From Natronomonas salina (GTDB lineage Archaea; Halobacteriota; Halobacteria; Halobacteriales; Haloarculaceae): DNA of 64,000 nucleotides. A program made the translations under genes and the position numbers. The notes below the pieces were generated by a model, which made no database searches, had not been told where the DNA came from, and saw nothing but the letters and a program-made list of their open reading frames with translations. Shown here piece by piece: positions 53,546 to 58,270 of this stretch (position 1 is its first letter; each line of letters starts with the position of its first letter). The stretch is taken from NCBI RefSeq assembly GCF_013391105.1, contig NZ_CP058335.1, positions 2,728,001-2,792,000 on the forward strand, written 5' to 3'.

Positions 53546-54234
53546 GCTCCGGTCGGTTCCAGTCCCGGCAGACGGAGGCGAACACCTACGACCTCGGCGA
53601 CGCCCTCCCGGTCGAGGGGCTGTCGTCGCTGGACGCCGGGACGAACGTCCTCGTCTCCGGGCCACCGATGCTGGGCAAACAGCAGCTCGTCCTCGAGCTG
53701 CTGGCGGCCGGCACCGACGACGAGCACGCCCTCGCGATCACGCCGGACACCAACGGCGACCGGCTCCGGCGGCAGTTCGAGAACGCCACCGGTCGCGACG
53801 CAGACCGGCTCCGGATCGTCGACTGCACGGGCGCGACCGGCAAGGGGTCGATGGACGACTCCGAGACGATCAAGTACGTCGGCTCGCCGAGCGACCTCAC
53901 CGGCATCGGGATGGGCATCGTCAAGTGCACCCGCGACATCGGCGCGGGCGTCGACGACGGCCTCCGGCTGTCCGTGCTGTCGCTGTCCACGCTGCTGCGG
54001 TACGCCAACGCCGACCGGATGTTCAACTTCCTGCACACCGTGACCGGCCGGGTCTCCGCCGCGGGCTACCTCGGGCTCGCCACGTTCGACCCGACCACCC
54101 ACGACGCGTCGGCGGCGAACACCCTCACCGCGCTGTTCGACGTCGTCGTCGAGCTCCGGGAGGCCGACGACGGCAGCCGCGAGGTGCGGGCCGTCGGCCA
54201 CCCCGGGACGCCGCGGACCTGGCAGCCGTTCTGA
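53542..54234 (+). CDS. RecA/KaiC-superfamily ATPase-like protein (DUF7504-like)
   Basis: 230 residues with a RecA-like core: a P-loop variant SGPPMLGKQQL near residue 40, in which Gln replaces the usual Ser/Thr after Lys, and a Walker B-like strand LRLSVLSLSTLL lacking a clear acidic end. Loss of these residues suggests weak or absent ATP hydrolysis. It is translationally coupled to the HalX regulator (4-bp overlap), so it is probably the output of the kinase-regulator pair. Similar proteins are common in haloarchaeal signalling clusters. Confidence 0.78.
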   Translation: MSSGRFQSRQTEANTYDLGDALPVEGLSSLDAGTNVLVSGPPMLGKQQLVLELLAAGTDDEHALAITPDTNGDRLRRQFENATGRDADRLRIVDCTGATGKGSMDDSETIKYVGSPSDLTGIGMGIVKCTRDIGAGVDDGLRLSVLSLSTLLRYANADRMFNFLHTVTGRVSAAGYLGLATFDPTTHDASAANTLTALFDVVVELREADDGSREVRAVGHPGTPRTWQPF

Positions 54235-54282
54235 GGGTCGCAGTCGAAACCCGTATCCCGCCCGCACGGCTACGGCCCGCCA

Positions 54283-55269
54283 ATGGAGTGCGACAAGTGC
54301 GGCGAGAGCGCGGTCATGCACGCCGCCTACTCGGGGCTGCACCTCTGCGAGGAACACTTCTGTCGCTCCGTCGACTCCCGGGTCCGCAAGCGCATCCGCG
54401 AGGACGCCCTCCTCTCGGAGGACGCCACGCCCGAGGACCCCGAGACCTGGCTGATCGGCCTGTCGGGCGGCAAGGACAGCGTCGTCCTCACGCACGTCCT
54501 CGACGACGTCTTCGCGCGGGACCCCCGCGTCGAACTCGTCGCGCTCACCATCCACGAGGGCATCGAGGGGTACCGCGACGCCTCGCTGGACGCCTGCCTG
54601 GAGCTGACCGACGACCTCGAGATCGACCACGAGGTCGTCAGCTACGCCGACGAGTACGGCCTCGAGATGGACGACGTCGCCGAGGACGACCCGCTGAACA
54701 TGGCCCCCTGCGCGTACTGCGGGGTCTTCCGGCGGGACGCCCTCTCGCAGTACGCCGAGGAGTATGGTGCCGACAAGCTCCTGACGGGCCACAACCTCGA
54801 CGACGAGGCCCAGACCGCGATGATGAACCTGCTGTCGGGCGATATCCAGCAGGTCGCCAAGCACTTCGACGCCTCGCTCGGCAGCTTCGAGGAGCGGGAG
54901 ATCGACGACGACCCGTTCGTCCCCCGCGCGAAGCCGCTGCGGGACCTCCCCGAGAAGGAGGTCGCCCTCTACGCGCACCTGCGGGACCTCCCGACGCACA
55001 TGGCGGAGTGTCCCCACGCCAGCGAGGCCTACCGCGGCGAGATCCAGGAGCACCTCCACGCCCTGGAGGACGACCACCCCGGAACCCGCCACTCGATCAT
55101 GTCGGGGTACGAGGAGCTGGCGAAGCTGGCCGCGGAGGCCTACCGCGGCAGCGACGACGAGGCCCAGGGGTCCTGCGAGCGCTGCGGCGCGCCGACGAAC
55201 AACGACGTCTGCCGGAAGTGCGAGCTAGTCGAAGCGGTCGGCGGCGAGCAGGCGGAGACCGTCGAGTAA
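54283..55269 (+). CDS. ncsA: tRNA 2-thiolation enzyme NcsA (Ncs6/TtuA family)
   Basis: 328 residues with an N-terminal zinc site (CDKCGESAVMHAAYSGLHLCEEHF), the PP-loop SGGKDS near residue 62, a central CAYCG pair and a C-terminal CERCG/CRKC zinc ribbon, the TtuA/Ncs6 layout. It adenylates and thiolates uridine-34 of tRNAs using sulfur from a ubiquitin-like protein (established for Haloferax NcsA). As I recall, NcsA, FtsZ2, CdrS and CdrL are adjacent in Haloferax volcanii, and the same order appears here. Confidence 0.94.
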   Translation: MECDKCGESAVMHAAYSGLHLCEEHFCRSVDSRVRKRIREDALLSEDATPEDPETWLIGLSGGKDSVVLTHVLDDVFARDPRVELVALTIHEGIEGYRDASLDACLELTDDLEIDHEVVSYADEYGLEMDDVAEDDPLNMAPCAYCGVFRRDALSQYAEEYGADKLLTGHNLDDEAQTAMMNLLSGDIQQVAKHFDASLGSFEEREIDDDPFVPRAKPLRDLPEKEVALYAHLRDLPTHMAECPHASEAYRGEIQEHLHALEDDHPGTRHSIMSGYEELAKLAAEAYRGSDDEAQGSCERCGAPTNNDVCRKCELVEAVGGEQAETVE

Positions 55270-55273
55270 TACT

Positions 55274-55383
55274 GTTTACGCGGCAGTTGTGCGTCCTACG
55301 AGCCGTTTACGGGAGAACCGCGGGACTGCGACGGTGTTTACGGAATAGTTGTGACTGTATACGGGATGGATACAGACGTAAAC
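55274..55383. repeat. phased GTTTACG repeats between convergent ncsA and ftsZ2
   Basis: GTTTACG at 55274, 55305 and 55336, a GTATACG variant at 55357 and an inverted copy CGTAAAC at 55377. Start-to-start spacings are 31, 31, 21 and 20 bp, close to 3, 3, 2 and 2 helical turns, so all copies face roughly the same side of the DNA. The 191-bp gap holds no gene and is downstream of both flanking genes. Confidence 0.75.
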
Positions 55384-55460
55384 GCGATCTCGGCTGGTCG
55401 ATGACAGTTGCCACTGCTGGGTGTCGTGGCGTCGCGAAAGAAACGTAGACGGTCGCCGGG

Positions 55461-56669
55461 TTACCGGATGACGTCGAGGCCGTTGTTCTTCTCGACCTCG
55501 GAGCGCCCGCCGTCGGTCTCGCCGAAGGCGCCGCCGGTGCCGCCGGTGTTGACCGAGGTGTTCGTCTCCGGGGGCGTCGAGGCGAAGTCGTCCTCGCCCT
55601 CGACGCCGTCGAGGGCCTGCCGGGAGGCGTCGGCCTGCTTCTGGGTCGTCGGGCCCAGGATCTGTGCGGACTGGACGCCGGTCATGATGGCCATGACCCG
55701 CACCTTGCCCTTGTAGTTGTCCTGGATCCGGGCGCCCCAGATGACGTTCGCCGAGGCCTCGAGGCGCTCGGTGATGTTCTGGGCGATGCCCTCGGCCTCC
55801 TTCAGCGTGAGGTCGGGGCCGCCGGTGATGTGGACCAGTCCGCCGGAGGCGCCGCGGTAGTCGACGTCCAGCAGCGGGTGGTTCATCGCGTCGTTGACGA
55901 CCTCCTTCGTCTTGTTCTTGTCCTGTGTCTCGCCGACGAGCATCACCGCGACGCCGCCCTGGTTCATGATGGAGGTCATGTCGGCGTAGTCGAGGTTGAT
56001 GAGCGACGGCTGGGTGATGGTCTCGCTGATGCCCTTCACCGTCTCGGCGATGATCTGGTCCATCACCGAGAACGCCTTGCCGATCGGCAGGTTCGGGACG
56101 TAGTCGAGCAGGCGGTTGTTGTCGAGGACGATGATGGAGTCCGCCTCGTTGCGGAGCTTCTCCAGGCCCTCCTCGGCCTTCACCGTGCGGGCGCGCTCGA
56201 CGTTGAACGGCGTCGAGACCATGCCCACGACGATGGCGCCCTGCTCCTTGGCGATCTTGGAGACGACCGGGGCCGCACCGGTGCCGGTGCCGCCACCCAT
56301 GCCGGCGGTGACGAACACGAGGTCCGCCTCGCCGAGGACCTCCTTGATGGTGCCCTGCGCCATCTCCGTGGCGCGCTCGCCCATCGAGGGGTCGCCACCG
56401 GCGCCGAGACCCTGCGTGAGCGACTTGCCCACGAGGATCTTGGTGTCGGCCTCGATCATCTGCAGGTGCTGCTTGTCGGTGTTGATGGCGATGGTGTCCG
56501 CGCCGTCGACGCCGATGTTGTACAGTCGGTTGACGGTGTTGTTGCCGGCGCCACCGCAGCCGATGATGACGATGCGCGGGTCGCCGAAGTCACTGGCGTC
56601 GTCGCCGGTGTCCATCTCCCGCTCTTCCTTCTCGGCGTTCTCCAGGGCGGAGTTGACGATGTCCTGCAT
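55461..56669 (-). CDS. ftsZ2: cell division protein FtsZ2
   Basis: 402 residues. After an acidic N-terminal tail of about 30 residues come the GTP-binding elements [14 protein letters not shown] (about 33-46) and the tubulin signature GGGTGTG at 125-131, then the T7 loop NLDYADM. A disordered C-terminal tail ends with a short conserved-looking segment. In haloarchaea FtsZ2 acts with FtsZ1 in the division ring and FtsZ2 is needed for constriction (established). It starts 3 bp after the cdrS stop, so the two form one operon; this context identifies it as FtsZ2 rather than FtsZ1. Confidence 0.95.
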
Positions 56670-56672
56670 CGT

Positions 56673-56846
56673 CTACACCCTGGCGAACGGGCGGTTCTGC
56701 TCCCGCTGTTCCCCGTCCTGTTCGTTCAACATCTCCCGCACGGCCGAGCGAATCGCTTCGCTCCGATTCGGGAACTCGCCCGTATCGACCATGCGTTCGA
56801 CCTCTTCGATCTGCTGCTTCGGAATCCGTAGTGTGACACGCTCCAT
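56673..56846 (-). CDS. cdrS: ribbon-helix-helix regulator CdrS
   Basis: 57 residues ([20 protein letters not shown], then [21 protein letters not shown]). The N-terminal strand and two helices are a complete ribbon-helix-helix (CopG/Arc-like) DNA-binding domain. CdrS controls division genes in Halobacterium and Haloferax and is encoded upstream of ftsZ2 (established). It is only 3 bp from ftsZ2. The short length makes it easy to miss. A GTAAGACG motif lies 27-34 bp upstream of its ATG, at the expected TATA position, which suggests feedback control. Confidence 0.92.
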
Positions 56847-56872
56847 GTATTATCTTCCCCTTTGTCTGTTGA

Positions 56873-56880
56873 GTAAGACG
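56873..56880. promoter_or_regulatory. GTAAGACG motif at the cdrS promoter
   Basis: GTAAGACG lies 27-34 bp upstream of ATG 56846. Its minus-strand reading CTTAC overlaps the position expected for a TATA element, so a bound repressor would block the promoter. Confidence 0.5.
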
Positions 56881-56905
56881 GCGTTGCACACGCGAGCCGC
56901 AACGC

Positions 56906-56913
56906 GTTTACAC
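56906..56913. promoter_or_regulatory. GTTTACAC motif upstream of cdrS
   Basis: A variant of the GTTTACG heptamer, 33 bp from the GTAAGACG copy at 56873. Confidence 0.4.
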
Positions 56914-56961
56914 CGGGAAACTGCGCGACGACGACCGGGTTCGCACCTCGGTCGCACCCGT

Positions 56962-56980
56962 GTAAGACGCGCCGTCTTAC
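56962..56980. promoter_or_regulatory. 19-bp perfect palindrome, likely operator
   Basis: GTAAGACG (56962-56969), CGC, CGTCTTAC (56973-56980). The 8-bp arms are perfect. It lies in the 235-bp gap between cdrL and cdrS, about 115-135 bp upstream of cdrS. Half-site copies of the arm are at 56873 and 57025. A ribbon-helix-helix dimer pair is a natural ligand. Confidence 0.65.
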
Positions 56981-57024
56981 GCAGATGTAATCACAGAAGG
57001 GTTCTACTTAAACCTTCGGGTGGT

Positions 57025-57086
57025 CGTAAGACACGGGCGTAATATGGGCGTTTACAGCCCGCTGTCCCGCGCTTGCGGCGTTTACG
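57025..57086. repeat. motif cluster at the 3' end of cdrL
   Basis: CGTAAGAC at 57025-57032, GTTTACA at 57050-57056 and GTTTACG at 57080-57086. The last copy overlaps the cdrL stop codon. The last two are 30 bp apart. Confidence 0.5.
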
Positions 57087-57633
57087 AATCGTGCAACACG
57101 TCCGCAGCGGGCGTCCGACGCCCGCAGCTGGGGCAGAACCCCCAGTCGGACCGGAGCTCGTCGCCGCACTCGCAGAACACCCTGTGGGAGGCCTTCTCGC
57201 CGCAGTTCGAGCAGTAGACGTCCGAGTCGGACAGCTGCTCTCCGCACTGTTTACACGCGTTGGACGGCTCCTCGGCCGCAGGCTCGCGCTCGTCCGCGCC
57301 TGTCTTACGTCCGGCGTCGTCACCCCCGCCGACGGCCGCCCCGTCCCCGTCCAGCGTGATGTTTACGTTCACGTCCTGCGGCTGCTGCGGCGTAAACGCG
57401 CCCTCGAGGCGGTCCGCGAGCACGGCGTCGACCCGCTCGGCGACGAGGTCGTCGAGGGACTCCTGGGCGTCGACACCCTCGTTTACGCCGTTCTCGGGGC
57501 CGTTTGCGCCCGTTTCCCCGTCCTCCCCCAGATACGCCCGGAGCGCCTCGCGCATGACCTCGCTCTTCGAGGCGTCGTACTCCTCGAGTTGGCGAATGAG
57601 GTCGTCGTCCGCCCGGAACGTGATCTTGCTCAT
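57082..57633 (-). CDS. cdrL: ribbon-helix-helix regulator CdrL with zinc ribbons
   Basis: 183 residues. An N-terminal ribbon-helix-helix domain (MSKITFRADDDLIRQLEEYDAS, then SEVMREALRAYLGE) is followed by an acidic linker with coiled-coil character (about 60-125) and two C-terminal Cys4-type ribbons (CKQCGEQL with YCSNCG; FCECGDEL with FCPSCG). It lies upstream of cdrS-ftsZ2 on the same strand, as CdrL does in other haloarchaea, where it controls the cdrS-ftsZ2 operon. Its coding sequence holds several GTTTAC/GTAAAC and GTCTTACG motifs, some using codons rare in this window (GTA Val, TTT Phe). ATG 57633 fits a TATA box. Confidence 0.9.
   Translation of the reverse strand: MSKITFRADDDLIRQLEEYDASKSEVMREALRAYLGEDGETGANGPENGVNEGVDAQESLDDLVAERVDAVLADRLEGAFTPQQPQDVNVNITLDGDGAAVGGGDDAGRKTGADEREPAAEEPSNACKQCGEQLSDSDVYCSNCGEKASHRVFCECGDELRSDWGFCPSCGRRTPAADVLHDS
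57249..57508. repeat. motif copies inside the cdrL coding sequence
   Basis: GTTTACA at 57249, GTCTTACG at 57302, GTTTACG at 57361, CGTAAAC at 57391, GTTTACG at 57481 and the variant GTTTGCG at 57502. Spacings include 30, 90 and 21 bp. They fall in different codon phases. Confidence 0.55.
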
Positions 57634-57658
57634 TATTCGTCCGACGTTCCGTGGCGAC

Positions 57659-57666
57659 GGTATTTC
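57659..57666 (-). promoter_or_regulatory. TATA-like box of cdrL
   Basis: GAAATACC on the minus strand, centred about 30 bp upstream of ATG 57633; fits a leaderless mRNA. Confidence 0.5.
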
Positions 57667-57785
57667 AATCTTCCCGCGTGTCTGACGGCCGTCGGTCGAC
57701 CGCCAGACGCCCGCGTGTGACGCCGCGGCACCGCCGCCGGAGGTCAAAACCGTTAAGTCCCGGAGTCGTCTCCGTTCAGACACGC

Positions 57786-57859
57786 CCGCCCTTAGCTCAG
57801 ACTGGTAGAGCAGTCGACTGTAGATCGACTTGTCCCCCGTTCAAATCGGGGAGGGCGGA
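57786..57859 (+). tRNA. tRNA-Tyr (GTA)
   Basis: A 74-nt cloverleaf: acceptor CCGCCCT pairs with AGGGCGG, D-arm GCTC/GAGC, anticodon stem GTCGA/TCGAC around loop CTGTAGA (anticodon GTA), T-arm CCCCG/CGGGG with TTCAAAT, discriminator A. No intron, and CCA is not encoded. It reads opposite to cdrL and is about 150 bp from its start. Confidence 0.95.
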
Positions 57860-58270
57860 CTGGTTTTACACTCGGACCGGATTGACCGGACAACGGCGGG
57901 TTCTCCGCGTTTACGCCCATATTCGTCGATAGATTTGAACGTGAAACCCAGTCGACTCTATTCACCGTGAGCGTATTCGCCCGCCGATGGGCCGAGCCGT
58001 AAGACGCGAGCCAGACCGCCGACCGGACGGGGGATTCAGTCACTCGTCGGTGATTAACGGCTCGCTATCGGGACTGCTCGTTCCGAGAAAACACTTGCTG
58101 CGCGTCGCTCCCCGCAGTTCGGCGCCGGTTGGCGCTGCGAACGAGCCTCCGAAGCGAACTGTACGCCCTCCCCGTAACCCCGGCGGAAATCTAGACCGGT
58201 TGACCATTTATTGACGGTTGTGGGACTGCTAATAATAGGGGTGCCGTCCGGAGCCGAGGTCGTGGTCGGA
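57860..58270. other. 411-bp region without a gene after tRNA-Tyr
   Basis: No convincing reading frame. It holds one GTTTACG (57909-57915) and one CGTAAGACG (57998-58006), outlying copies of the two motifs around ftsZ2. The AT-rich stretch 58196-58240 should contain the promoter of the following gene. Confidence 0.6.
58229..58236 (+). promoter_or_regulatory. TATA-like box of DUF7344-like gene
   Basis: CTAATAAT centred about 38 bp before ATG 58271, giving a leader of about 10 nt. Confidence 0.45.

Follow-up and report, generated by a model that had tools for sequence, protein, structure and literature searches.

We found that the gap in which the convergent genes ncsA and ftsZ2 end carries five helically phased copies of a short half-site that it shares with the cdrS promoter and cdrL, and that a related element recurs 3′ of ftsZ2 in other haloarchaeal genera. 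The window referred to below is the whole stretch of DNA analyzed, 64,000 nucleotides of Natronomonas salina, and the features of the locus are collected in Table 1. The gap sites are very probably operator sites, a grading that, like those for the binder and for bridging below, is our judgement and not a computed value. From the sequence we see about an even chance that together they serve a ribbon-helix-helix (RHH) regulator, CdrL or possibly CdrS, as an auxiliary operator, one that would lie where the cdrS-ftsZ2 operon has its 3′ end and would bridge to the promoter array.

Table 1. Genes, half-sites, and other features of the ncsA-ftsZ2-cdrS-cdrL locus (positions in the window)
Feature	Position	Strand	Remarks
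ncsA	54283..55269	+	TtuA/NcsA-type PP-loop tRNA thiolation protein; Pfam
Convergent gap, ncsA stop to ftsZ2 stop	55270..55460		191 bp
Heptamer 1, GTTTACG	55274..55280	+	ncsA stop codon 4 bp before
GTAGGACGC half-site	55289..55297	-	Counterpart of GTATGACGC, invariant in Natronomonas relatives (alignment of 15 Natronomonas 3′ flanks)
Heptamer 2, GTTTACG	55305..55311	+	With 55289-55297, conserved core common to Natronomonas relatives
Heptamer 3, GTTTACG	55336..55342	+	
Heptamer 4, variant GTATACG	55357..55363	+	Hexamer GTATAC is self-reverse-complementary
Heptamer 5, inverted GTTTACG	55377..55383	-	CGTAAAC on the forward strand
T-rich stretch, TTTCTTTC in ftsZ2 sense	55434..55445	-	3′ of ftsZ2, before the array; probable ftsZ2 terminator
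ftsZ2	55461..56669	-	Pfam Tubulin and FtsZ_C
cdrS	56673..56846	-	Ribbon-helix-helix regulator; Pfam RHH_1
cdrS promoter array	56873..57086		GTAAGAC at 56873, 57026; GTTTAC at 56906, 57050, 57080
cdrS promoter palindrome, GTAAGACG-CGC-CGTCTTAC	56962-56980		
cdrL	57082..57633	-	RHH and double zinc ribbon; Pfam
Array sites within cdrL reading frame	57249, 57302, 57361, 57392, 57481		
tRNA-Tyr gene	57786-57860		Upstream of cdrL
Outlying sites past tRNA-Tyr, upstream of cdrL	57909..58005		GTTTACG at 57909, GTAAGAC at 57999

The original prediction had placed five heptamers at spacings of 31, 31, 21, and 20 bp on one face of the helix. Three are GTTTACG and one is an inverted copy of it, but the fourth proved to be the variant GTATACG rather than an exact copy. 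The first three spacings held, and the last is 21 bp when all sites are put in a common hexamer register, the value of 20 having come from the use of 7-mer starts for the inverted copy. Hexamer spacings of 31, 31, 21, and 21 bp put the five sites on one helical face, as predicted, with a phase coherence at 10.5 bp of 0.92 for 7-mer centers and 0.97 for hexamer centers. When five sites were placed at random within the 191-bp gap, the 7-mer coherence had a P of approximately 0.005 at 10.5 bp and of 0.001 with the period left free between 10 and 11 bp (P values for phasing, for repeats, and for site density count related genomes as independent and are to be read as orders of magnitude). The gap has four exact GTTTAC/GTAAAC hexamers; dinucleotide shuffles averaged 0.18, and none of 5,000 reached four. 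With the word not fixed beforehand, the repeat had a P of 0.05 for any hexamer and 0.011 for any heptamer; statistical support for a repeat chosen afterwards is modest when the gap is taken alone.

The same half-site, read as GTTTAC or GTAAAC, is common to the gap and the cdrS promoter region, and its second array, over the cdrS promoter and cdrL, lies 1.5 to 2.7 kb from the gap. The 64-kb window has 15 copies of GTTTAC where 3.9 are expected, and 12 of the 15 fall within 55274-57914; of its 21 GTAAAC and GTAAGAC sites, 18 lie within 55274-57999, that is, in cdrL, the cdrS promoter, and the gap. Exact pattern searches, on which all our genome-wide counts are based, found only four GTTTAC-N10-40-GTTTAC pairs in the 3.75-Mb genome, of which two were in the gap, one in the cdrS promoter, and one elsewhere (G000:C1:458283). 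With three of the four close pairs located there, the pairing in sequence of gap and cdrS promoter sites that had been predicted was borne out. In twelve related Natronomonas loci, cdrL and the cdrS promoter carried the sites at near-fixed positions and the far upstream flank had no GTAAAC or GTAAGAC, and the palindrome GTAAGACG-N3-CGTCTTAC of the cdrS promoter was present as a single copy in nearly every genome of the genus that was searched. Outside Natronomonas, half-site density over 72 haloarchaeal loci was 5.5 to 16 per kb over cdrL-cdrS, 1.17 per kb at +50 to +300 past ftsZ2, and approximately 0.25 per kb in the far flank. Because half-sites and close GTTTAC pairs concentrate at this locus, we regard the gap sites as a downstream outlier of a putative cdrL-cdrS-ftsZ2 operator array. 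At one related locus (L038), two GTAAAC copies 31 bp apart stand where the window has its outlying sites at 57909-58005.

The sites inside cdrL are spelled, in its reading frame, with the rare Val codon GTA, both as GTAAAC and as GTAAGAC. In Natronomonas cdrL, 27 of 31 GTA codons belong to GTA-AAC, and over 82 loci the Val-Asn pair was spelled GTAAAC in 62 of 127 cases in cdrL versus 0 of 119 in ftsZ2. A set of loci from another family (f4) has GTATAC and GTAAAC 31 bp apart within cdrL while the intervening bases vary. The simplest reading is that these sites reflect a DNA-level constraint within the gene. In the window, these operator-like sites span 57249-57487. An RKT tripeptide (CGTAAGACG) was found in all Natronomonas CdrL proteins examined, in an otherwise variable linker.

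The exact five-copy layout was absent from all loci of the genus that were compared and is known from one genome. What the relatives share is a conserved block, CTGACA-N6-CGTAAA(A)C-N-GTGTATGACGCTCGGCTGACGG in the ftsZ2 sense, found in 14 Natronomonas genomes approximately 70 to 120 bp past the ftsZ2 stop and beyond the T-rich stretch. Positions 55288-55313 of the window align with the core of this block (CGTAAAC...GTAGGACGC), which is near-invariant in the 14 genomes. In 13 of 20 genomes, the pattern CGTCAGCC-N-CGTCATAC had a single occurrence, placed approximately 100 bp beyond the ftsZ2 gene; one further match was a stray. Halosegnis and one Halorarius carried, equally far past ftsZ2, related motifs (CGTATTAC, GGCTGACG, and CGTATGACG, or variants close to these). 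The element was kept in three genomes in which ncsA was not detected (G009, G012, G018) and in a fourth (G019) in which the next gene apparently runs in the same direction, indicating that it travels with ftsZ2. In Natronomonas and Halosegnis, the ftsZ2 stop is also followed directly by GTCNGA, with a CTGAYA box approximately 70 nt further on, at a near-constant distance; the DNA between the two is unconserved (L033-L043, L052, L085, L086, L144, L153).

A more compact form was found in the gap of Natrinema, Haloterrigena, and Natronorubrum as GTTTAC-NNN-CGTATAC, with variable NNN and the two hexamers one helical turn apart (10-bp register). Its hexamers are ordered and oriented as in sites 5 and 4 of the window, which read GTTTAC-N15-GTATAC in the ftsZ2 sense, a pair that is one helical turn longer. 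Over 293 genomes of the order, the compact pattern gave 28 matches versus 3 for its backward control, mostly one per genome and in one family (f7), evidently Natrialbaceae, and ftsZ2 lay immediately upstream in 24 of the 28. In an alignment of these 24 genomes, information was confined to the 16-bp site columns, while the flanks, the distance to ftsZ2, and the neighboring genes varied. Taken together, the comparisons and folding tests indicate that DNA is conserved at this position 3′ of ftsZ2 independently of coding or RNA structure. At least 4 of the 24 sites fall within the first coding portion (5′) of a nucleotidyltransferase-like frame that adjoins ftsZ2 and is co-directional with it (MHAFVFAAGRGTRLRPYT; R-L-R-P-Y-T, with the Leu codon TTA; L245, L246, L249, L251), and in those cases the protein sequence may contribute to conservation of the site. 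Related pairs were also found in Halopiger djelfimassiliensis (GTATAC-GTTTAC at 21 bp) and Halovivax (GTAAAC-GTATAC at 20 bp). At wider spacings, 8 of the 30 GTTTAC...GTATAC matches listed over the 293 genomes were at the cdrL locus, 7 of them at 31 bp inside cdrL of family f4, and none of the 30 was 3′ of ftsZ2. Many genera had no site 3′ of ftsZ2, including the Haloferax relative and one of the two Halobacterium relatives compared. Conservation of spacing with change of the intervening bases, which had been proposed as a check, does not hold for the five-copy layout in its exact form, there being no relative with it, but it does for the position-matched element, as the 10-bp register of the Natrialbaceae-type pairs is retained while NNN and the flanks vary.

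We found no support for a coding or RNA explanation of the gap, in agreement with the original prediction. RNA folding was unremarkable on both strands (z of -0.2 and -0.4), Rfam gave no family at gathering score, and the consensus fold of the relatives (-0.47 kcal/mol) had no double-sided changes and no covariation, and a structured noncoding RNA was rejected for lack of an Rfam match or covarying structure. A small gene was also rejected, as the single mechanical open reading frame across the gap (53925-55448) overlaps ncsA in another frame and is unsupported. The array is no better explained as an intrinsic or T-stretch terminator, given the same hairpin scores and a T-rich stretch that, read in the ftsZ2 sense, comes before the array instead of coinciding with the repeats. 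Haloferax volcanii uses T-stretch terminators and has a T5C stretch after ftsZ2, a kind of stretch that gave 95% termination in a reporter (PMC7237163). With the T-rich stretch of the window in between, ftsZ2 transcripts probably end before the array.

Published binding data bear on which regulator would occupy the sites. In Halobacterium salinarum, CdrL ChIP-seq gave reproducible binding upstream of cdrS only, at one site, and nothing is reported 3′ of ftsZ2 (PMC7439475), and CdrS ChIP-seq in Haloferax gave 18 sites, including ftsZ1, again with nothing reported 3′ of ftsZ2 (PMC8406309). These model species belong to genera whose loci, as compared here, mostly lack the downstream element. In Natronomonas, the ftsZ1 promoter has the palindrome GTCTGACG-NN-CGTCAGAC, likely a CdrS operator, which is built like the cdrS promoter palindrome GTAAGACG-N3-CGTCTTAC. 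Since ChIP-seq places CdrL upstream of cdrS and CdrS at ftsZ1, we infer that CdrL is the best candidate for the GTAAAC/GTAAGAC family and CdrS for GTCTGAC, and we somewhat favor CdrL over CdrS as the main binder of the gap sites. The site pattern was not lost with cdrL, however. Two genomes of another genus (g4; G058 and G064, loci L050 and L048) have no detectable cdrL, which their congeners have, yet they keep the cdrS promoter palindrome and half-sites, and they carry no site downstream of ftsZ2. CdrL thus cannot be the sole reason for the promoter sites, and CdrS or another RHH protein may bind the palindrome too. The ftsZ1-upstream palindrome was conserved in most Natronomonas genomes (L057-L072).

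In the mechanism that we propose, the five heptamers would be half-sites occupied in vivo by the RHH regulator of the locus, most likely CdrL and possibly CdrS. Dimers aligned on one face of the downstream array would contact those bound at the promoter array approximately 1.6 kb away and bridge the two, closing the cdrS-ftsZ2 operon into a loop, which in turn would set or stabilize autoregulation of ftsZ2 transcription and keep the unit apart from its neighbor. A 1.2- to 1.7-kb unit flanked on either side by sites for one protein, all on one face, suggests such bridging, to which we give somewhat less than an even chance, and suggests that a single regulator marks the operon at its two ends. 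Among the functions that had been put forward for the array, that of a loop anchor acting with the sites of the cdrS promoter appears to fit best. In a more far-reaching version, the 2.7-kb locus as a whole, from the cdrL reading frame through the cdrS promoter to the ftsZ2 3′ end, would be a distributed phased platform for an RHH protein that coats the locus or folds it into a closed domain, rare codons having allowed operator sites to be embedded in the coding sequence of cdrL. In its strongest form, the platform would also be a chromosomal, partition-like nucleoprotein site with a physical link to the FtsZ2 tubulin; we consider this reading distinctly improbable.

Other explanations assign the bound protein a different role. 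It could act as a roadblock or insulator that halts transcription running on from ncsA or from ftsZ2 and so keeps antisense transcripts out of ftsZ2. The location between two convergent 3′ ends, past the stretch that probably ends the ftsZ2 mRNA, would suit such a role, and proteins have been proposed to act as roadblocks at haloarchaeal termination sites (PMC7237163). However, the T5C stretch of Haloferax already terminates efficiently, at least four of the Natrialbaceae-type sites lie within the next co-directional reading frame, and the element stays beside ftsZ2 in the genomes where ncsA was not detected or the next gene seems co-directional. A roadblock between convergent genes, one of the functions originally put forward, is weakened by this last observation in particular, and we consider it unlikely. 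The sites could instead be the operator of an unannotated promoter in the gap that drives an antisense or small RNA, much as Haloferax CdrS sites lie 41 to 110 nt upstream of transcription starts, those of unannotated genes included (PMC8406309); the DNA from the element to the ftsZ2 stop is also A+T-rich in Natronomonas. Yet the 24 aligned genomes conserve the 16-bp site columns only, with neither a TATA box nor a BRE conserved at any constant spacing, the neighboring genes and the distance to ftsZ2 vary, and neither a conserved RNA structure nor an Rfam family at gathering score was found, making a gap promoter quite unlikely.

A centromere-like or filament-nucleating site, as in plasmid partition cassettes, would account for phased RHH sites next to RHH genes and a tubulin homolog, with repeats on one face and a motif nearly unique to the locus, and plasmid partition proteins do bind repeats and repress their own operon (PMC5016525). 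On the other hand, CdrS (PMC8406309) and CdrL (PMC7439475) are described as transcription regulators, and the sites are more thinly and less regularly spread than iterons, most genomes having only one or two downstream, so that we regard this function as highly improbable. Finally, the repeats could have arisen by chance or by a recent functionless local duplication unique to the window genome, a reading favored by the lack of the exact five-copy layout in any relative and by a P of 0.01 to 0.05 for the gap-only repeat with a word chosen afterwards. This is difficult to maintain for the entire element, whose core is conserved in 14 relatives, whose sites are specific to the locus genome-wide, and whose phased GTTTAC/GTATAC pairs recur independently in another family as well as in Halopiger and Halovivax, at 21 and 20 bp. 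A chance origin could apply to some of the five copies and is otherwise very improbable.

The closest known counterpart of the proposed auxiliary operator is the Halobacterium salinarum CdrL region upstream of cdrS-ftsZ2 (Darnell et al. 2020, PMC7439475), which has the same locus, regulator genes, and half-site family, the cdrS promoter array corresponding to the stretch to which ChIP-seq mapped CdrL. The published region is upstream only, and as far as the available part of that report goes, it makes no mention of the downstream site, the sites internal to cdrL, or the helical phasing. The Haloferax volcanii CdrS operator, e.g., at ftsZ1 (Liao et al. 2021, PMC8406309), likewise has a symmetric motif and an RHH regulator from the same operon, but its half-site is GTCTGAC in contrast to GTAAAC/GTAAGAC, and almost all of the 18 sites are tied to a transcription start, with none 3′ of ftsZ2.

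More distant systems share single aspects. The lac operator O2 lies inside the gene. In looping by LacI at O2 and O3, a secondary operator away from the promoter is bridged by the same protein (PMC4725879); the lac system differs in protein fold, and the putative operator here lies past a 3′ end. In parC/ParR and tubC/TubR-TubZ, repeats beside a cytoskeletal gene are bound by a small protein that represses its own operon (PMC5016525), but those iterons are compact and upstream of the operon, whereas the gap array is downstream; TubR is a winged-helix rather than an RHH protein, and CdrS and CdrL have no known role in segregation. The conserved Natronomonas core contains GTATGA, as does the NikR operator GTATGA-N16-TCATAC, and NikR, like CdrS and CdrL, has an N-terminal RHH domain, with CdrS matching it weakly by sequence. 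However, CdrS (57 amino acids) lacks the nickel-binding domain and GTATGACG stands here outside the N16 arrangement, and the likeness may be a coincidence.

FtsZ2 dosage matters for haloarchaeal division, and CdrS and CdrL are among the few known archaeal division regulators. If the conserved downstream site and the sites internal to cdrL function as proposed, the published promoter-only picture would be incomplete, and the locus would offer a simple case of archaeal operon looping or 3′-end control. We found no earlier report of the downstream element in the open-licence literature, which its absence from the Haloferax relative and from one of the two Halobacterium relatives compared could explain. 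Several Natrialbaceae additionally carry tandem repeats of approximately 27 bp (CGGCAyCTGACACACCACC) directly past ftsZ2 (L099, L101, L123, L124, L141).
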